Shown in pieces: positions 18,930-31,861 of a stretch of 64,000 nt of DNA. Numbering within the stretch: the first letter of the stretch is position 1; each line of letters begins with the position of its first letter. This DNA is from Pannonibacter phragmitetus DSM 14782 (GTDB lineage Bacteria; Pseudomonadota; Alphaproteobacteria; Rhizobiales; Stappiaceae): contig NZ_KB908223.1 of assembly GCF_000382365.1 (NCBI RefSeq), positions 1 to 64,000 on the forward strand, written 5' to 3'. The notes below the pieces were generated by a model. It was not told where the DNA came from. It saw only the letters and a list, made by a program, of their open reading frames with translations, and ran no database searches. The position numbers and the translations under genes were made by a program.

Positions 18930-20132
18930 GTGTGGTGGCGTAGTTTTTTCTGTTTTTGTTCATTGGTAATGCTACCCACAAGCCAAGCTTGGTCGCTTAC
19001 TTTTGAACCGCTCACCATCGATTCGGAGACAGCTCTTATCGTTGTCTCGGGCCCCTTCGAGGCGTACGAGGACTTCACACCATTCTTCAAGGTAATAGAC
19101 AGCCTTGGACGACGCTCAGCAATAGTGACATTCGATTCACCGGGCGGGAACCCATCAAAGGCAATAGAACTTGGACGTATTATCCGGGCGCTGAAGCTTC
19201 CAACCTTGCAGACACGCTCACGTATCTGCGCTTCTGCCTGTGCTTTGGCCTTTATCGGAGGCATTGTACGAGGGGCCGAAGCTGGCTCAATAGGCGTTCA
19301 CAAATCTTCATTTGCAGATACATCAGGAATGACAGTTGATGGCGCCGTCTCTTACGTTCAGCATCAAATGGCTGAGACAATTTCTTATCTGCTCGAAATG
19401 GGAGTAGAACCCGGTCTCCTTCAGCTTTCTCTCAGATACGAGCAGGACGACATACGCTTTCTTTCAAAGAGCGAAATGCAGGAATACCGCGTCACAACGT
19501 TTGATCTTAGCAAAGGAATAGGAACAACTACTGCCACATCCCAACCGCGCAATACAACTCCCTCGCACCCCCAAGCAGCGCCACCACATAGCACCAGCAG
19601 TTCAGCGAGCAGGGCATTGCCCGATTACAGGGTTGCACCCAATGATACTCGTTTTCGCATTCCGCTGGCACAATCGGGCATGGTGTATGTTCCCAAGGGG
19701 CGAGAGCATCTCCGGTCTGCAGAAAACCAGTCATCCGCCAAAATTGTTGAATTGAAGAATGGAGATCCCGTCGAAATTCTATCGGTCGGCGAGCGCTGGT
19801 ATCATGTGCGAGTACTAGGTAAAGTCGGGTACCTGCACCACAATTGGGTCCGCGTCGATCAGTTTGTGCAACGCCCCTTCGACCATCGCTTCATCCAAAT
19901 CAAGAGCTTTGACAACTTCGCAGAGGCAGAATATTTCGTCATAAATTCGGATTTACCACTTACTGCATATCTTGCGACAAATAACTGGTTTGCCATAGCT
20001 CTCGCGGGAACCTTCCCCTTAGAGAGAGCCAAGACATTGCTAGATAATTTAAAGACACAACAGCTTGTACCAAACGATGCGTTTGTGACGGTGGGCAACA
20101 CCTACGTCAACGCAGTTTGCTGTGAGCGATAA
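18930..20132 (+). CDS. Secreted ClpP/crotonase-fold protein with SH3 and SPOR-like domains
   Basis: 400 residues from a GTG with GGGGGAG five bases upstream, then a signal peptide (about residues 1-21). Residues 30-190 resemble the predicted periplasmic ClpP-like family (COG3904 type): FDSPGGNPSKAIELGRIIR, a probable nucleophile Ser102 in ICASAC, and His124 in IGVHKSS. A Pro/Ser/Thr linker (about 200-235) leads to a bacterial SH3 domain (about 250-310: VYVPKGREHLRSAEN, then GDPVEILSVGERWYHVRV). The end (about 320-397) looks like a SPOR domain. The combination suggests a cell-wall-associated serine protease. The gene is clearly more AT-rich than its surroundings, so it was probably acquired. 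Confidence 0.75.
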   Translation: MWWRSFFCFCSLVMLPTSQAWSLTFEPLTIDSETALIVVSGPFEAYEDFTPFFKVIDSLGRRSAIVTFDSPGGNPSKAIELGRIIRALKLPTLQTRSRICASACALAFIGGIVRGAEAGSIGVHKSSFADTSGMTVDGAVSYVQHQMAETISYLLEMGVEPGLLQLSLRYEQDDIRFLSKSEMQEYRVTTFDLSKGIGTTTATSQPRNTTPSHPQAAPPHSTSSSASRALPDYRVAPNDTRFRIPLAQSGMVYVPKGREHLRSAENQSSAKIVELKNGDPVEILSVGERWYHVRVLGKVGYLHHNWVRVDQFVQRPFDHRFIQIKSFDNFAEAEYFVINSDLPLTAYLATNNWFAIALAGTFPLERAKTLLDNLKTQQLVPNDAFVTVGNTYVNAVCCER

Positions 20133-24213: not shown

Positions 24214-25355
24214 GCGGCCGCCCTCCCCTGCGTTGCGGCTTCCCGGCGCTGGCCATCGGCACCGAAGACATGCAGCCGCTCCGGCGCGAAGGACAGGTTC
24301 AGCGTGCCTTCCGGCGAAACGGCCAGCGGCACGGCCGCGGACTGGCGGAACGTCAGGACGAGATCATCGTGTCCAGCAAGCGCGCAGCTGACATAGCGGT
24401 CGGCGCCATGCATCTCGGCCCGCAGCACGCGGACGGTCAGGCCGTCGGACGCAGGGACCAGGTCTTCCGGCCGCAGGCCGATGGTGGCGGTTTCCGCCCC
24501 TTGTGCGGCCACCTGCACGCCCAGATCCTGCCCCAGCGCATGCACGCGGCCTTCGGCCGTGATTTCGGCCGGCAGCAGGTTGATCGCCGGCATCCCGATG
24601 AAGCGGGCGACGGTCAGCGTCGCCGGGCGGCGGTAGAGCTCATCCGGCGTGCCCAGCTGCTCGATCCGCCCTTCCGACATCAGCGCGATGCGGTCGGACA
24701 TGGTCATGGCTTCGATCTGGTCATGGGTCACATAGATGAAGGTCGCGCCCAGCCGCCGGTGCAGGGCCGCCAGTTCCTCGCGCATGTGGGCGCGCAGCTT
24801 GGCGTCGAGGTTCGACAGCGGCTCATCCATCAGGAAGGCCGAAGGAGAGCGCACCAGCGCCCGGGCAAGCGCCACACGCTGGCGCTGGCCGCCGGAAAGC
24901 TGGGCGGGCCTGCGGTCCAGCAGATGGCCAATCTGCAAGGTTTCGGCGGCGTCTTCGACAGCGGCGGAGATTTCGGCAAGCCGTGCCTTCGGCGCCATCA
25001 GGCGGCCCACCAGCGGCAGGCGGGCGGAAGCGGGCAGACGGCGCATGCGCAACGGGGTGGCGATGTTCTGGCGCACACTCATGTGCGGGTAAAGCGCGTA
25101 GGACTGGAACACCATGGCAAGGTTCCGGTCGCTCGGGTCCATGCCGGTCACATCCGCGCCGCCGATGTTCACCTTTCCCTGATCCGGCGTCTCCAGCCCG
25201 GCGATGACCCGCAGCAGCGTGGACTTGCCACAGCCGGAGGAGCCGACCAGCGAGAGAAATTCACCCGGACGGATGGACAGATCGATGCCCTTGAGCACGC
25301 TTTCGCTGCCAAAGGTCTTGCGGATTCCGGAAAGTTCGACTGCTTGCGGCGACAT
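24210..25355 (-). CDS. ABC transporter ATP-binding protein, UgpC/MsmK family
   Basis: 381 residues, GGGAGCGCAGG before the ATG. It has Walker A GSSGCGKST, the Q-loop in MVFQSYALYPHMSV, signature [16 protein letters not shown], Walker B AFLMDEPLSNLDA and the H-loop in YVTHDQIEAM. The last 130 residues form the TOBE/MalK-type regulatory domain (IGLRPEDLVPA). It is the first gene of the importer operon and powers uptake. The order here (ATPase first, binding protein fourth) differs from the enteric ugp operon. Confidence 0.92.
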   Translation of the reverse strand: MSPQAVELSGIRKTFGSESVLKGIDLSIRPGEFLSLVGSSGCGKSTLLRVIAGLETPDQGKVNIGGADVTGMDPSDRNLAMVFQSYALYPHMSVRQNIATPLRMRRLPASARLPLVGRLMAPKARLAEISAAVEDAAETLQIGHLLDRRPAQLSGGQRQRVALARALVRSPSAFLMDEPLSNLDAKLRAHMREELAALHRRLGATFIYVTHDQIEAMTMSDRIALMSEGRIEQLGTPDELYRRPATLTVARFIGMPAINLLPAEITAEGRVHALGQDLGVQVAAQGAETATIGLRPEDLVPASDGLTVRVLRAEMHGADRYVSCALAGHDDLVLTFRQSAAVPLAVSPEGTLNLSFAPERLHVFGADGQRREAATQGRAAA

Positions 25356-25751
25356 CCTGCGCTCCCTGTTCAGGGGCGCATATGCAAGTCTCCATATGAC
25401 AGATTGACGAAGCCTTGCTGACCATTTGATGAATTAAGCAAATTTAAGCAGAGATTTTATCCGCGTGTAATCAGGATTGATCATATGGATAAGCAGGATT
25501 TATGGCTTTGCGTATCTTCGATTGCTTTCTTAGACGGCACAAAAACCTCATAGCATCTGCCCGCCACCGTGACTCGGCTGAATCTGTGCAAGGCGGAGCA
25601 TGAGGGCGGCAGTCCGTGACACGCAGCACACCTTGCAAGACAGGCTGCTGTAAGATCATTGCCCGCAGGTTGCCTTTGCTGCTCCCGGCGGATTATCCAG
25701 TAGGCAGCAACGCGGGCGCCATTTCGGGCATCATTCCGGGCAGGACAGACG
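25356..25751. promoter_or_regulatory. Divergent promoter region between the importer and caspase operons
   Basis: 396 bases without a supported gene. The importer-proximal half is AT-rich and contains two tandem copies of AATT(T)AAGCA (25432-25440 and 25441-25450) and three CATATG motifs (for example CCATATGAC at 25392-25400), which are candidate operator sequences. No confident -35/-10 pair was found for either direction. Confidence 0.4.
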
Positions 25752-27977
25752 ATGAGACAAGCTGACAGCGGGTCGCGGAAGACGATGGCAGAGCCCGCCA
25801 GACTGGTGCCTGCGATGATGATGGCCGTTCTGGTTCTCTGCCTCATGCTGCTGGGTGCGGTGGCTCCGGCACGTGCGCAAGACACGGCCAGCCGCCTCGC
25901 GCTGGTGATCGGCAATGCCGCCTATGACAGCCCTGCCCTGCCCGCCCTGAAAAACCCGGCCAATGATGCGGCGCTGATTTCCGGCAGTCTCAAGGCGGCA
26001 GGCTTTGAGGTGACGCTGGTGATGGATGCGGATCTGCGCGGCATGAAGGCGGCGGTGCGCGACTTCACGGCCAGGCTCAAGGCCGCCCCCTCCGGCACGC
26101 TGGCGGCGGTCTATTACTCCGGCCACGGCTTTGCCGCCGGCGGGCGCAATTATCTGGCCCCGCTCGGCGCGGATCTGCGCGAGGAAGTGGATGCGGAGTT
26201 CGAGGCGCTGCCGGTGGACTGGGTGCTGGCGGCGGTGGAAGAGGCCCATGACGGGCCGAACATCATCATCCTCGATGCCTGCCGCAACACGGCGCTGACC
26301 CGCTCCGCAGGCGGCAGCGCGGGCGGTCTGACGCTGCTGACGGGCACGCCGCGCGGCAGTTTCATTTCCTTTGCAACGGCTCCCGGCAGCACGGCAGCGG
26401 ATGGTGAGGGTCTCAACAGCCCCTATTCGGCGGCCATTGCCCGGGAGCTTCTGGTGCCCGGCGCCAGCATCGAAACCGTGTTCAAGCGCGTGCGGCAGGA
26501 TGTGGTGACGGCAACGGACGGGGCGCAGGTGCCGTGGGACCATTCTTCACTCACCACCGACATCATCCTGATGCCAACCGCAGACAGCGCGGATGCAGCG
26601 GGCGCCGGTCCTGCCCCTGCGGCCACCGCCGAGGCGCTGCAGCAGGAACTGGTGTTCTGGAACGGGGTAAAGGACAGCCGCACCGCCGCCGACTACGAGG
26701 CCTATCTGGAGCGCTTTCCCGCTGGTGCCTTTGCCGAGCTGGCCCGCATGCGCCTTGCCAGCTTGCCTGCGGCGGACACCGGGCAGATCGAACAGCTTTT
26801 CGCCGCCCTGCAAAGCCGCTCGCTGCTGGTGGAAAATCCGCAGCGCCCGCATGAATTCTACGCCAACGCCCGCCTGCGCGAGCTGAAGGGCGATTATCCG
26901 GGCGCACGGCAGGACTATCTGAAATATTTCGCCTTCGGCGAGCCGCAGATTGATCCGCACCTGCGGTTTCAGGCGGTGCTGAAGGTGCAGGAGGGCCGCG
27001 CCGGAGCGCGCGAGGTCTACCGTGCGCTTTCCGCCGGGCGCCGCGATCCGGCCACGCTGTTTGCCTCGATCCTGCTGGAGGAGCGGGACGAGCGGGTGCG
27101 CCGGCTGGACAGCTTCATAGAAGCCTATCCGGATTTCGGCCCGGCGCTTTACGAGCTCAGCCTCGATTATTCGCAGAGCCGCCTCGGCCAGCAGTCGCTG
27201 GCCGACAAGACGAGGGAAAAGGATCTGCTGACCCGTTTCGTCGAGGCGGCGGATCAAGGCAAGGTGCTGCGCTATTTCATCGACCAGCAGATGGCCGCCA
27301 GCTGGCTGGAAGATGCCCGCAGCCGCCTTGCCGCGCTTTCGGCCATGAGCGATGCGGCCATGGCCAATCCGCTGCAGCTGTCCGCCACCCGCAGCAATCA
27401 GGGCTGGCTGATGACGCTCTCCATCGCCGACAAGGCGCGTGAGATCTTCGTGCGCCTGCCGGGCGGCGAGTTCCGCTCCACCGGCGTCATGAGCGGGGCG
27501 ATGGACCCGGCCACCGGCCAGCACCTGCCCTATCCCGGCTTCGAGCTGCCCGGCTCGGCGACCGCCATGGAGATCGAGGTGCAATACACCAATCTGCACG
27601 GCGAGACGCAGGGGCCGTACAGGCTGCATTTCGATCCGGACACGGCGCTGATTGCCGGGCAGAAGGACATTCTCGAGCGTTTCTGGAACAGCTGGATCTC
27701 CTTCGGCGGCACTGGTGACAGGCTGGCCTATTTCACCCATCTGCTCAGCTACCGCTGCGCATTGTCCGGCGTGCGCTACGGCATCAACAAGGATGAGCCG
27801 GACACAGCCTTCGACACCGGCCCCTGTGACCCGGACAATCCCCATGCCGTGCCCCGCTCCGGGCCGGGATCGGATGTCTATCTGCAGGTGCCGCGCAGCA
27901 CGTCCTATATCACCGTGCAACTGACCTACAGGGACGGCACCCGCTCGGACGTGCGCCGCTTCGACGCCCCCAGATGA
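25752..27977 (+). CDS. Secreted caspase-like cysteine protease (peptidase C14/metacaspase)
   Basis: 741 residues. A hydrophobic signal or anchor (residues 20-42) ends ARAQD. The caspase fold follows (LALVIGNAAYDSPALPALKN, the p20 opening), with catalytic His125 in YYSGHG and Cys177 in LDACRN, both intact. The ~450-residue C-terminal part has TPR-like helical stretches (WNGVKDSRTAADYEAYLERF; LKGDYPGARQDYLKYFAFGE), then a beta-rich region. It is the first gene of a three-gene unit and overlaps the cyclase gene by four bases. It should cleave after basic residues, as metacaspases do, in the periplasm. Physiological targets are unknown. Confidence 0.88.
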   Translation: MRQADSGSRKTMAEPARLVPAMMMAVLVLCLMLLGAVAPARAQDTASRLALVIGNAAYDSPALPALKNPANDAALISGSLKAAGFEVTLVMDADLRGMKAAVRDFTARLKAAPSGTLAAVYYSGHGFAAGGRNYLAPLGADLREEVDAEFEALPVDWVLAAVEEAHDGPNIIILDACRNTALTRSAGGSAGGLTLLTGTPRGSFISFATAPGSTAADGEGLNSPYSAAIARELLVPGASIETVFKRVRQDVVTATDGAQVPWDHSSLTTDIILMPTADSADAAGAGPAPAATAEALQQELVFWNGVKDSRTAADYEAYLERFPAGAFAELARMRLASLPAADTGQIEQLFAALQSRSLLVENPQRPHEFYANARLRELKGDYPGARQDYLKYFAFGEPQIDPHLRFQAVLKVQEGRAGAREVYRALSAGRRDPATLFASILLEERDERVRRLDSFIEAYPDFGPALYELSLDYSQSRLGQQSLADKTREKDLLTRFVEAADQGKVLRYFIDQQMAASWLEDARSRLAALSAMSDAAMANPLQLSATRSNQGWLMTLSIADKAREIFVRLPGGEFRSTGVMSGAMDPATGQHLPYPGFELPGSATAMEIEVQYTNLHGETQGPYRLHFDPDTALIAGQKDILERFWNSWISFGGTGDRLAYFTHLLSYRCALSGVRYGINKDEPDTAFDTGPCDPDNPHAVPRSGPGSDVYLQVPRSTSYITVQLTYRDGTRSDVRRFDAPR

Positions 27978-29935
27978 CCATGGGCCGCGCCAGCAAACCC
28001 GCGCTTGCGGGGCCATTGCAGCGCAGGCTGGCGCCGGTTCTGGCGGCCTGCCTTGCGCTTATTCTGGTGCTGCCCGTGGCCACAAGGCTGGAGCCGCGCC
28101 TTGGCGATGTGATCCTGTTTGCCGGTGGCGGCACGGCAGCGGAACGGCGCGAGGATATCGTCATCCTCACCATCACCGAGGAAACGCTCGCCGCCTTTCC
28201 CTACCGCTCGCCCATCGACCGGGGCTTTCTCGCGGCCCTGATCCGCCGCATCAGCGCCACCGGCCCCAAGGCCATCGGCATCGACATCCTGTTCGACGGC
28301 CCGAGCGACCCGGTGAAGGATGCCGATCTGCTGGGGGCGATTGACGACGCTTCAAGCCCGGTGATCCTGGCTGTTGCCAGCGACCTCAATGACCTGACGC
28401 CGCAGCAGCGGATTTATCTGGGAAACTCGGTCAGCGGGCGCGGCCATGGCTCCATCGTGCTGCAGCGCGATGATTCAGATGGCATCGTGCGGCATCTGCC
28501 CTTCCCGCAGGACAGGGACGGCGCACCGATCACCACCTTCACGGCAGCGCTGGCCGCCGAAGCTGCCGGCACGCCGCCGCCGCGCGGGCGCATTCTCTAT
28601 CAGGCGCCGCAAGGCCCCGGCCTCACCGCCTTTCCGCAATATCCGGCCCACACGGCGGCGCTGCTGCCGGATGAGTGGCTTGCCGGGAAATACGTGCTGA
28701 TCGGCACGGACCTGCCGCATCTCGACCAGCATCCGGCGCCGATGGTGTCCCTTGCCGGCACCGAAGGCGGCACCGTGCCGGGCATCGCCATCCACGCGCA
28801 TATTCTGGCGCAGGTGCTGGAAGGCCGCAGCCTGCCTGCCCTGCCGCTGGAATTCGGCCTCATGCTGGCTGCCCTTGCGGCGGCCGCCACCGTCACCGGC
28901 TTCACCCTGACGCAGAAGCCGGGCCGCTTCTTCCTCGTGCTTGGCCTTGCCGCATTTGCCTGTCTTGCCGTGTCCGCGCTGCTGCTGCGCTTGCAGATCC
29001 TGCAGCTGCCGGTGCTCACCCCGCCTGCCGCCGCGATTGCCGCCGCGCTGCTGCTCGCCCTGTTCCGCTGGCGCATCGACCGGTCAGAGCGGGCGTTTCT
29101 CAACACCGCCTTCTCCCGCTATGTCAGCCCGCAAGTGGTGCAGCGGCTGACCTCGGGGCGGCTCAGCCTTGCCCTTGGCGGGGAAAAGCGCACCGTCACC
29201 TATGTGTTCACGGATCTGGAAGGCTTTACCACCCTGTCGGAGCAGCTGACGGCGGATCAGGTGGCCGCGATCCTCAACCGCTATCTGGACCGCATGTGTG
29301 ACCTTTTCGTCGGCCACGGCGCCACCATCGACAAGCTGATCGGGGACGCCGTGGTCGGCTTCTTCGGCGCACCGGAGGAAGACCCGGAGCAGAGCCTCAA
29401 GGCCGTGAAGCTGGCGCTGGCGGTGGATGCCTTCTGCGAGGGCTTCCGCAAGGAGATGGCGGCGGAGGGCATTCCGCTCGGCGTCACCCGCATCGGCCTG
29501 CACCGGGGCGAGGCTGTGGTCGGTAATTTTGGCGGTAGCCGGTTTTTCGATTATACAAGCATCGGTGACACGGTGAACACCGCCGCCCGGCTGGAAGGCG
29601 CCAACAAGTATCTGGGCACGCGCATTTGCGTCAGCGCCGCAGCTGCGGCCCACGCTCAGGGCCTCACCTGCCGGCCCATCGGCGATCTGGTGGTGAAGGG
29701 CCGCGCGGAACCCTTGCCCTGCGTCGAGCCTTTGAGTGAGGCGGAGGCCGGGACGGAGTGGATGGCGGCCTATGCCGCCGCTTTCGCCTTGCTGCAGCAA
29801 GAGGATGCGGAGGCGGCGCGGCAGGGGTTCGAGGCGGTGCTGCGCCTGCGCGGCGATGACGGCCCCTCGCGCCTGCATCTGGCGCGCCTCGGGCAAGGTG
29901 AAACGGGTACACAGATCGTTCTGGGCGGCAAATGA
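27974..29935 (+). CDS. CHASE2-domain class III adenylate cyclase
   Basis: 653 residues starting inside the caspase stop codon (ATGA). One N-terminal membrane helix leads to a periplasmic CHASE2 sensor (about 45-290: EDIVILTITEETLAAFPYRS; ATGPKAIGIDILFDGP). Three membrane helices follow (about 293-365), then a class III cyclase domain (about 405-590). Metal-binding Asp414 (FTDLEGFT) and Asp458 (LIGDAVVGFFG) are present. Lys454 and Asp526 (FFDYTSIGD) favour ATP over GTP, and NTAARLE supplies the transition-state residues. It should make cAMP inside the cell on a periplasmic cue. Translational coupling to the caspase gene suggests a joint function. Confidence 0.93.
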   Translation: MTMGRASKPALAGPLQRRLAPVLAACLALILVLPVATRLEPRLGDVILFAGGGTAAERREDIVILTITEETLAAFPYRSPIDRGFLAALIRRISATGPKAIGIDILFDGPSDPVKDADLLGAIDDASSPVILAVASDLNDLTPQQRIYLGNSVSGRGHGSIVLQRDDSDGIVRHLPFPQDRDGAPITTFTAALAAEAAGTPPPRGRILYQAPQGPGLTAFPQYPAHTAALLPDEWLAGKYVLIGTDLPHLDQHPAPMVSLAGTEGGTVPGIAIHAHILAQVLEGRSLPALPLEFGLMLAALAAAATVTGFTLTQKPGRFFLVLGLAAFACLAVSALLLRLQILQLPVLTPPAAAIAAALLLALFRWRIDRSERAFLNTAFSRYVSPQVVQRLTSGRLSLALGGEKRTVTYVFTDLEGFTTLSEQLTADQVAAILNRYLDRMCDLFVGHGATIDKLIGDAVVGFFGAPEEDPEQSLKAVKLALAVDAFCEGFRKEMAAEGIPLGVTRIGLHRGEAVVGNFGGSRFFDYTSIGDTVNTAARLEGANKYLGTRICVSAAAAAHAQGLTCRPIGDLVVKGRAEPLPCVEPLSEAEAGTEWMAAYAAAFALLQQEDAEAARQGFEAVLRLRGDDGPSRLHLARLGQGETGTQIVLGGK

Positions 29936-29962
29936 CCTGCGCCCGAACGGATCGAGAGCAAG

Positions 29963-30697
29963 ATGAGGTTCGGCATGTTCCGGCAGATGATGATCGCGGC
30001 CCTGTTGAGCGGGGCAACCGCAGCGCCAGCGCTGGCGGACATGATTGTGGTTGCCGCCAGCGGCCCCGCCAGCCTGCAGCCGGGCGACCGCATTGCCGAA
30101 GGCTCCAGCCTCAAACTGCCTGATGGCGCAAAGGTCACCGTTCTTTTCCAGTCCGGTGAAATGAAACGCATCGACGGCCCCTTCGACGGCAAGCTGGATG
30201 CCGCCCCGCCGGTGGAGCGCCCCTTCAGCGGCTGGGATGCGGTGCGCAAGTTCCTTGGCGCTGGCGGCCAGACATCGGAAGTGCTCGGCGCCTCGCGCAA
30301 GACGGACAGCAGCCTGCCGGACCAGCCGGGCATCTGGCTCGTCAGCATCGACAGCTCCGGCGAACGCTGCACCCGCAAGGATGAACTGACCTTCTGGCGG
30401 CGGGACGCGGCAGAGACCCTGACCGTCACCCTGCGCAATGAAGCAGGCAAGGCGTCAGATCTCAACTGGCCGGCGGGCAGCCACACATTCACAGCCCCAG
30501 CCACATTCCCTGTGACCGAAGGCGCGCTGGCGCTTTCGGCTGGCTCAAACTTGCGCAAGTTCGGCCTCAAGGTGCTGCCGCAGGATCTGGAAGACGCCTA
30601 TCCCGGTGCCGTGCTCGGCTGGCTGCTCGACAGCGGCTGCAACCGCCAGGCCTCCGCACTCATCTCCCGCGTCCACGGCGGACAGCCGCTGGAATGA
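29963..30697 (+). CDS. Secreted FecR-like beta-domain protein
   Basis: 244 residues with a signal peptide (cleavage after PALA). Residues 26-75 (VVAASGPASLQPGDRIAEG, then LKLPDGAKVTVLFQSGEMKR) follow the FecR-type beta pattern G-x-L-x-x-G-D-x-I-x-x-G-x-x-L. The middle (GERCTRKDELTFWRRDAAET) and end are unrecognised; two cysteines (in GERC and SGCN) may pair in the periplasm. It follows the cyclase gene by 27 bases and should be co-transcribed. A role as periplasmic partner or input for the CHASE2 sensor or the protease is an inference. Confidence 0.65.
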   Translation: MRFGMFRQMMIAALLSGATAAPALADMIVVAASGPASLQPGDRIAEGSSLKLPDGAKVTVLFQSGEMKRIDGPFDGKLDAAPPVERPFSGWDAVRKFLGAGGQTSEVLGASRKTDSSLPDQPGIWLVSIDSSGERCTRKDELTFWRRDAAETLTVTLRNEAGKASDLNWPAGSHTFTAPATFPVTEGALALSAGSNLRKFGLKVLPQDLEDAYPGAVLGWLLDSGCNRQASALISRVHGGQPLE

Positions 30698-30723
30698 GGC
30701 AAGGGCTGCCCGCCCTTGCCTTT
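30698..30723. terminator. Bidirectional terminator between the caspase-cyclase operon and the peptidase gene
   Basis: GGCAAGGGC (30698-30706) and GCCCTTGCC (30712-30720) form a perfect 9-bp stem with a 5-base loop, followed by TTT. It starts immediately at the stop codon of the plus-strand gene and sits between convergent genes. Confidence 0.75.
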
Positions 30724-30730
30724 GCCGCCC

Positions 30731-31861
30731 TCAGGACAGCCGCAGGAACAGGCCGGCGCAGAGCTTGGCACGCTCTGCGAGGCTGTCGATCAGGATATGC
30801 TCGTTAAGCGTATGCAGACCTGAACCGCGCACGCCGATGGAATCCAGCGTCGGGATGCCGAGGGCGCCGGTGAAGTTGCCATCCGACCCGCCGCCCGCGC
30901 TGGCGTGGCTCATCTCGAAGCCCACTTCTGCGGCCAGTTCCTTTCCGATCTCGTAGAGCGCCAGCGTGCCTGCATCGGGCTCCCACACGGGACGGGTGAC
31001 GCCGCGTGTCACCTCGATGATCACCTCGCCGCTGTCATCATTCAGCGCCAGCATCCGCTCCACGCCCGCATCAAGATCCGCCTGCCGCTTGGCCATGGAC
31101 AGCACCTGCCCCTCGCAGAGGGACGAGACGCAGTTGACCCACTCCCCGCCCCGGACGATGCCGACGCTGAAGGTGCAGTCCTCGCCCGTCATTGCCTCGA
31201 TTTCCAGCACCTTGCGGGCCATGGCGGCAATCGCCGAGCGCCCGTCCTTCAGCGCCCAGCCCGCATGGCTGGGGCGGCCGATGGTGCGCAGGTTGAAACG
31301 GGCAATCGCATAGCGGCCCGTGACGCAGCCGCCATCCTCCCGCGCCGGTTCCGGCACCAGCACATAGCGGTTGCGCAGGGCCTCCATCTCGATGAGATCG
31401 CGCGTCGAAGGCGTGCCCACTTCCTCATCGGGGGTAAAGAGCACCGTCACCGGCAGCGGCGTGGAGAGCCCGGCGCGGATGATCTGGCGCAGAGCCTCGA
31501 CGGCGACGTAATTGCCGCCCTTCATGTCCTGAATGCCCGGCCCGTAGGCCCGGTTGCCCTCGATGCGGAACGGCAGCTTCTCCAGCGTGCCGATGGGATG
31601 CACGGAATCCATGTGGCCGCTGACAAGAATGCCCGGCTTGCCCTTGTCCGGATGCGGCAGGCGGGCGCGCAGCGATCCGCCAAAGCCCATCCGCCCCGGA
31701 ATGCGCTCGATATCTGCGCCGAGCGCTGCCAGCTCATAGGCGGCGAGATCCATCATCCGGTTGAGCGCGGCCGCGTCATGGGTGGGGCTTTCGCATTCCA
31801 CCCAGGGACGCAGGCCCTTGATCATTTCATTGCTGTCGAAAGGTAAGTCCGTGAAACGCAT
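30731..31861 (-). CDS. M20-family metallopeptidase (carboxypeptidase G2/ArgE-DapE-like)
   Basis: 376 residues, GGGAGCAGG before the ATG. Metal-site blocks of M20 are SGHMDSVHP, GIQDMKGG and the catalytic TPDEEVG; a dimerisation-domain stretch (GRPSHAGWALKDGRS) follows. It hydrolyses an amide or peptide bond, probably releasing a C-terminal glutamate or similar from N-acyl amino acids or dipeptides in the cytoplasm. It is the last gene of a unit that encodes a peptide importer and another M20 enzyme, so it likely processes imported substrate. Confidence 0.88.
   Translation of the reverse strand: MRFTDLPFDSNEMIKGLRPWVECESPTHDAAALNRMMDLAAYELAALGADIERIPGRMGFGGSLRARLPHPDKGKPGILVSGHMDSVHPIGTLEKLPFRIEGNRAYGPGIQDMKGGNYVAVEALRQIIRAGLSTPLPVTVLFTPDEEVGTPSTRDLIEMEALRNRYVLVPEPAREDGGCVTGRYAIARFNLRTIGRPSHAGWALKDGRSAIAAMARKVLEIEAMTGEDCTFSVGIVRGGEWVNCVSSLCEGQVLSMAKRQADLDAGVERMLALNDDSGEVIIEVTRGVTRPVWEPDAGTLALYEIGKELAAEVGFEMSHASAGGGSDGNFTGALGIPTLDSIGVRGSGLHTLNEHILIDSLAERAKLCAGLFLRLS

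Follow-up and report, generated by a model that had tools for sequence, protein, structure and literature searches.

Exported caspase-fold proteases recur beside genes for a CHASE2-domain cyclase and a small exported protein, in the host family of the DNA examined here and well beyond it. The case from which we start lies in the first 64,000 nucleotides of contig NZ_KB908223.1 of Pannonibacter phragmitetus DSM 14782 (Stappiaceae), hereafter the window, where three genes on the forward strand encode an exported caspase-fold (C14) protease (gene 1, 25752..27977, 741 amino acids), a protein with a CHASE2 domain, transmembrane segments and a class III cyclase domain (gene 2, 27974..29935, 653 amino acids), and an exported protein of an uncatalogued family, which we call P3 (gene 3, 29963..30697, 244 amino acids). 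We give about even chances to the reading that the three genes form one envelope signalling module, in which the exported caspase would act on the P3/CHASE2 side and tune cyclic AMP (cAMP).

Conservation of the unit in the host family

P3 had matches in 26 of the 87 host-family genomes, 25 of them strong and one (G005) weak, and full-length relatives of the caspase (>1340 bits) were present in exactly the same 25 genomes as the strong P3 matches. All 24 units fetched besides that of the window have the order caspase, cyclase, P3. The neighbourhood is conserved well beyond the strain, with this single gene order, and what is conserved is the combination that a sequence-only reading of the window had described, in which a protease and a beta-rich protein, both exported, accompany a cyclase with a periplasmic sensor domain. 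The open reading frame (ORF) layout given by that reading is also present: the caspase stop and the cyclase start overlap as ATGA (27974-27977), and genes 2 and 3 are separated by 27 nucleotides. In the fetched units genes 1 and 2 overlap or lie near each other, the ATGA overlap occurring in few relatives and short gaps in many. The nearest named relative is Pannonibacter indicus DSM 23407, whose caspase is 97% identical, and ratios of nonsynonymous to synonymous substitution rates against that species (0.08 for the caspase, 0.12 for the CHASE2-cyclase and 0.14 for P3) indicate purifying selection on all three genes.

A second collection comprised 30 loci, 26 of them with all three genes; 17 of these 26 are apparently the same genomes as in the family set and nine are new. 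Contig ends cut the locus after the caspase and CHASE2 in L072 and L079, and the caspase of L084 is a distant one without the catalytic dyad. When the 5-kb flanks of 34 of the 36 complete units were compared (L076 and L081 were left out, and some flanks are shortened by contig ends), they fell into 14 upstream and 10 downstream groups. The independent contexts number fewer than 14, because both flanks are common to 13 units from a single genus and another 13 upstream-downstream pairs of flanks have a gene in common.

Some individual loci depart from this picture. The unit at L081:551-5506, on a metagenome contig, has fragmented caspase and cyclase frames. Among genomes of genus g6 the number of caspase-profile matches reaches 15 (in G035), three of which are clustered at G035:C1:5217846-5222587. 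In L077 (Acuticoccus) a window-type caspase stands alone beside an SMC-like gene (L077:7986-10166), and in L118 P3 and a CHASE2-cyclase without a caspase (L118:7555-10323) lie beside what by eye is apparently the same SMC-like gene, as if each locus had lost the half that the other retains.

Linkage of caspases to P3 beyond the family

P3 matches were found in 26 of 297 order genomes, 34 of 337 class genomes and 31 of 398 genomes drawn from the phylum, the three samples overlapping. For the linkage analysis we used the 44 P3-positive genomes of the order and class searches that lack a window-type unit; we dropped from the order search eleven genomes that have such a unit and four whose P3 matches were weak (G249, G289, G292, G311), and from the class search the window's own genome. 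A caspase profile made from the window's family failed to pick up distant caspases of the class set that the Pfam C14 model found, and a broader profile, built from these, was then used. The 44 genomes hold 93 C14 and 126 CHASE2 places. A CHASE2 gene lies within 5 kb of P3 in 38 of the 44 genomes (38 of 49 P3 places), and a caspase lies within that distance in 12 genomes from nine families, against 0.26 expected (Poisson 1.4e-16; by families 1.1e-11). At 1, 2.5 and 8 kb, 3, 6 and 12 genomes were observed with a caspase near P3, against 0.08, 0.14 and 0.39 expected. A caspase was found within 5 kb of 12 of the 41 P3-near CHASE2 genes (in 11 genomes) and of none of the 85 other CHASE2 genes (Fisher 4e-7), so that the caspase link is with this P3/CHASE2 subtype.

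From the phylum search 20 loci were fetched, 16 of them outside the class, where 18 genomes had a P3 match and one place was taken in each of 16 (G750, G837 and second places were left out). In 5 of these 16 loci, belonging to three families, a caspase ORF lies no more than 0.3 kb from P3, and in three others one lies at 5-8 kb; these figures are plain counts. Not all linked loci are of the three-gene composition. In L222 and L224 a caspase adjoins P3, with neither CHASE2 nor a matching cyclase in the stretch fetched, and at L049:9714-15375 (G005) a TPR class III cyclase without CHASE2, a caspase with a peptidoglycan-binding domain and P3 follow one another on one strand. Conversely, there are CHASE2 proteins without a cyclase match (L122, L125, L126, L127 and L129, the first four beside a P3-like gene), as checked with Pfam for L125 and L126 and with our own profiles for L122, L129 and L127, the last being cut by a contig end.

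The linked caspases and their active sites

The gene 1 protein matches the Pfam family Peptidase_C14 over residues 48-270 (E 6.8e-33; 114.7 bits against a cut-off of 21.4), and its nearest solved relative by sequence is the MALT1 paracaspase. By hydropathy it has a hydrophobic export segment at residues 19-37, and past the C14 domain it continues into a conserved C-terminal region of about 440 amino acids in which there is only a weak hint of TPR. The intact His125/Cys177 dyad of the sequence-only reading holds up across relatives, being invariant in all 26 aligned caspases (the window, the 24 unit orthologues and the distant L049). In the 17 linked caspases that were checked, equivalents of Asp72, His125, Asp175 and Cys177 are all retained. 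For TbMCA2, whose catalytic cysteine is Cys213, the proposed S1 pocket residues include Asp95 and Asp211 (PMC4357240; here and below, published work is cited from excerpts). Asp175 of gene 1 corresponds to TbMCA2 Asp211, and Asp72 appears to correspond to Asp95. Given this match of S1-pocket residues, one would first guess a cut after Arg or Lys, and Asp72 and Asp175 predict that Arg or Lys is probably the preferred P1 residue of the linked caspases.

Beyond the active site the linked caspases vary widely. The window type combines C14 with the long C-terminal region; L183, L184 and L186 are caspase-FGE proteins, L174 is a Sel1-SH3-caspase, and L049 carries a peptidoglycan-binding domain, which in L117 falls below the cut-off. 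Pfam identifies WD40-caspases in L166 and L167, and L170 looks alike by eye. In L175 and L187 the caspase is preceded by a region without a Pfam name, which by eye had seemed Ig-like, an assignment that Pfam does not confirm. In a tree of the caspase domain the window type, L117/L119, L183/L184/L186, L049 and L174 stand on separate branches, some of them weakly supported. Outside the class, L222, L223, L224, L226 and L231 have giant caspase ORFs of 1,093-2,214 amino acids adjoining P3; DUF4347 begins all three of those that were scanned (L222, L223, L226), and two of the three also have Ig or cadherin-like domains. As to export, hydropathy shows a hydrophobic segment N-terminal to the other domains in 9 of the 12 linked caspases of the 44-genome set (their starts not being fixed), and the remaining three look exported by eye, whereas the same method gave no such segment in the five giant ORFs.

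The CHASE2-cyclase

Gene 2 encodes a CHASE2 domain (PF05226; E 7.3e-29, 101.5 bits against a cut-off of 26.3) and a Guanylate_cyc domain (Pfam; E 5.7e-18, 65.6 bits against 21.9). Hydropathy is compatible with export for proteins 1 and 3 and with a membrane protein for protein 2, in which one N-terminal segment (15-33) and two segments after CHASE2 (287-305 and 320-338) place the domain between transmembrane segments. Asp414, Lys454, Asp458, Thr528, Asn535 and Arg539, which we take to be the catalytic residues of the cyclase, are invariant in 25 of 25 aligned sequences, in keeping with the CHASE2 cyclase with its catalytic residues that had been proposed from the window alone. The gene 2 product probably makes cAMP, to judge from its domains and residues. 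A Sinorhizobium meliloti CyaD1 construct without CHASE2 produces cAMP constitutively (PMC5498481), which means that CHASE2 can restrain a cyclase, and CHASE2 cyclases of that species respond to a protein signal via an outer-membrane protein (PMC13001267).

P3 and the ends of the unit

The sequence-only reading had called the third gene product a small secreted FecR-like protein. It is indeed small, exported and beta-rich, but the FecR label found no match by any test. P3 has no credible Pfam or NCBIfam match; none of 33 P3 members matched FecR (PF04773) at E values up to 1; a PF04773 scan of the genome gave four places, none of which is P3; and an hhalign comparison of P3 with those four FecR domains gave a probability of 1.7% (E 0.029, 18 columns, with only four rows on the FecR side). 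On these tests we reject membership of the FecR family. The protein has a beta-strand region in its N-terminal part (residues 26-77), a low-confidence linker (101-116) with a conserved LGAxR motif that includes Arg112, and a beta sandwich (about 133-204) followed by two C-terminal helices, with Cys136 and Cys226 invariant. Its fold weakly resembles that of MtxA, as a two-domain fold match, and the MtxA structure 4z29 was not among the matches up to E 10 with three P3 profiles. The LGAxR motif resembles a site for an Arg-specific protease, and we considered it as a caspase-specific cleavage site. The alignment has Arg112 in 52 of its 55 rows, and the conservation of this residue does not track the presence of a caspase, so this candidate was rejected.

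Long opposite-strand ORFs border the three-gene unit on either side. A scan of 25300-30900 listed no sigma-70-type promoter on the forward strand upstream of 25752 and no consensus terminator at the end of gene 3. The terminator thought to close the unit thus reduces to a hairpin at 30696..30722 (forward strand; 11 bp, -22.7 kcal/mol) that lacks a T run and that 12 of 200 shuffles equal in folding, which hints weakly at a possible transcript end. Elsewhere in the window, an ORF at 18930-20132 encodes a protein with an apparent signal peptide and a bacterial SH3 domain; the stretch ahead of the SH3 domain resembles ClpP by eye only.

Comparison with known systems

In the open-access literature searched, as far as its excerpts go, we found no description of a caspase, a CHASE2-cyclase and P3 together, although parts of the combination are known. 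Campylobacterota have clusters of a CHASE2-adenylate cyclase, a surface protein said to carry a FecR domain and a TPR protein, for which a common pathway was proposed (PMC9239204). The grouping of a CHASE2 cyclase with a partner protein recalls the window, whereas those clusters include a phosphodiesterase, which is not among the three genes of the unit here, no caspase is mentioned in the excerpt, and P3, unlike the partner there, is not FecR by sequence. The mtxA gene of magnetotactic bacteria also lies next to a CHASE2/adenylate cyclase gene, and MtxA, like P3, is exported. MtxA is built of a beta region, an Ig-like domain and helices, which P3 matches weakly over two domains of the fold; it differs in its length (313 amino acids), in two TPR motifs and in having no sequence match to P3 profiles, and the word "caspase" is absent from the paper's main text (PMC4439547). 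The BiofilmReg operon of Burkholderia, with a two-gene version in P. aeruginosa, likewise sets a periplasmic LysM/FecR protein beside a CHASE2 sensor, but it signals through a histidine kinase, joined in Burkholderia by a response regulator, and the excerpt mentions no caspase (PMC5192318). The CyaD1/CyaD2/CyaK-NsrA-Clr pathway of S. meliloti shares with the window CHASE2 cyclases, there with an envelope protein signal, and differs in that its input passes through an outer-membrane barrel, again with no caspase mentioned in the excerpts (PMC5498481, PMC13001267). Finally, the Trichodesmium metacaspase-CHASE2 protein (PMC3501461, PMC2853523) and the EACC2 caspase-CHASE2 proteins (PMC8195603) join a caspase fold to CHASE2, as fusions, with no cyclase or P3 mentioned in the excerpts, and for the Trichodesmium protein the authors put the caspase in the cytoplasm (PMC3501461, PMC2853523). 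In a 2012 survey of bacterial caspases and operons the words "cyclase" and "FecR" are absent from the main text.

A proposed mechanism and its alternatives

From the composition, conservation, recurrent linkage, active-site residues and export segments described above we infer physical contact, cleavage, a direction of control and cAMP as the product, as follows. P3 would be the soluble periplasmic partner of the CHASE2 domain, for which it is the best candidate because it accompanies CHASE2 in most P3 genomes, with or without a caspase. Together, P3 and the CHASE2-cyclase would form a receptor controlling the level of cAMP in the cytoplasm. The exported caspase, which is a third and optional member beside P3/CHASE2, would share the periplasm with them and have as its target P3, CHASE2 or a protein held by the pair, and its cut, probably after Arg or Lys, would change the output of the cyclase. 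Action of the caspase on P3 or on the P3/CHASE2 complex is favoured over control in the reverse direction by the caspases beside P3 with no CHASE2 or matching cyclase in the stretch fetched (L222, L224) and by the grouping of cyclase, caspase and P3 in L049. In a bolder version, to which we would commit only tentatively, Arg-cutting exported caspases of several lineages would have been recruited repeatedly to P3 as a single periplasmic adaptor family, and processing or occupancy of P3 by the caspase would release a CHASE2-restrained adenylate cyclase.

Several points weigh against such a module. The Poisson test takes genes to be placed at random and uses rounded genome sizes, and both it and the Fisher test count related genomes separately (three of family f133, two of f24) unless done by families. 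The P3/CHASE2 pair can dispense with a caspase: 32 of the 44 genomes lack one at 5 kb or less from P3, although some of the contigs end close by, and in 12 of the 44 no C14 domain could be detected. The caspase/P3 pairs of L049, L222 and L224 lack a CHASE2 gene in the stretch fetched. All 12 rows that come from genomes in which no C14 domain was detected still have Arg112, so that LGAxR looks like a core P3 motif and, on this evidence, cannot be read as a caspase site.

One may also consider that the caspase is the output rather than an input, i.e. that P3 and the CHASE2-cyclase sense the envelope and, via cAMP and a Crp-like regulator, control an exported effector protease that belongs to the same unit and has other targets. 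Many P3/CHASE2 pairs have no caspase linked to them and could represent the older core (CHASE2 near P3 in 38 of 44 genomes, a caspase in 12), the linked caspases vary widely, as effectors often do, with DUF4347 in three of the five giant ones and Ig or cadherin-like domains in two of these, and the host genome has 12 cyclic nucleotide monophosphate-binding domains (PF00027). However, a caspase beside P3 where CHASE2 and cyclase are missing, as in the stretches fetched of L222 and L224, is easier to explain by contact with P3 than by control through cAMP, and the ATGA overlap points to matched amounts of the two proteins, although few relatives have the overlap and many have short gaps. On balance we think this scenario less probable than the module in which the caspase is the input, though worth keeping in view.

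A role in anti-phage defence, with a cyclic-nucleotide alarm and a cell-killing caspase as in Pycsar or caspase-based systems, appears very unlikely. The PADLOC PycC model does match the cyclase (E 1.5e-30) and the PADLOC caspase model matches gene 1 (9e-8), and bacterial caspases fused to conflict-system domains have been published (PMC8195603), but the PycC match is limited to the cyclase core (residues 402-545), and an apparently exported caspase would be a poor cytoplasmic effector. In Pycsar the cyclase has an adjacent gene for a cyclic-nucleotide-binding effector, whereas none of the 12 PF00027 places is on the window's contig (C9), so that no such gene is adjacent here. Mere co-inheritance, i.e. 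neighbours carried along in related genomes without a joint function, is if anything still less likely, for while part of the data does come from kin (the 13 one-genus units and the 13 gene-sharing flank pairs), several unrelated flank contexts remain, the linkage recurs with caspases of separate branches in nine families beyond the window's unit type, and all three genes are under purifying selection.

If the envelope module is real, it would give bacterial caspases a defined signalling role outside the cytoplasm, unrelated to cell suicide. The linkage itself provides a specific and testable partner set, P3 with one CHASE2 subtype, for several lineages of bacterial caspases. Because a partner protein encoded beside CHASE2 recurs in Pseudomonadota, the finding bears on what CHASE2 domains sense, and it suggests a role for some bacterial caspases in signalling at the cell surface.

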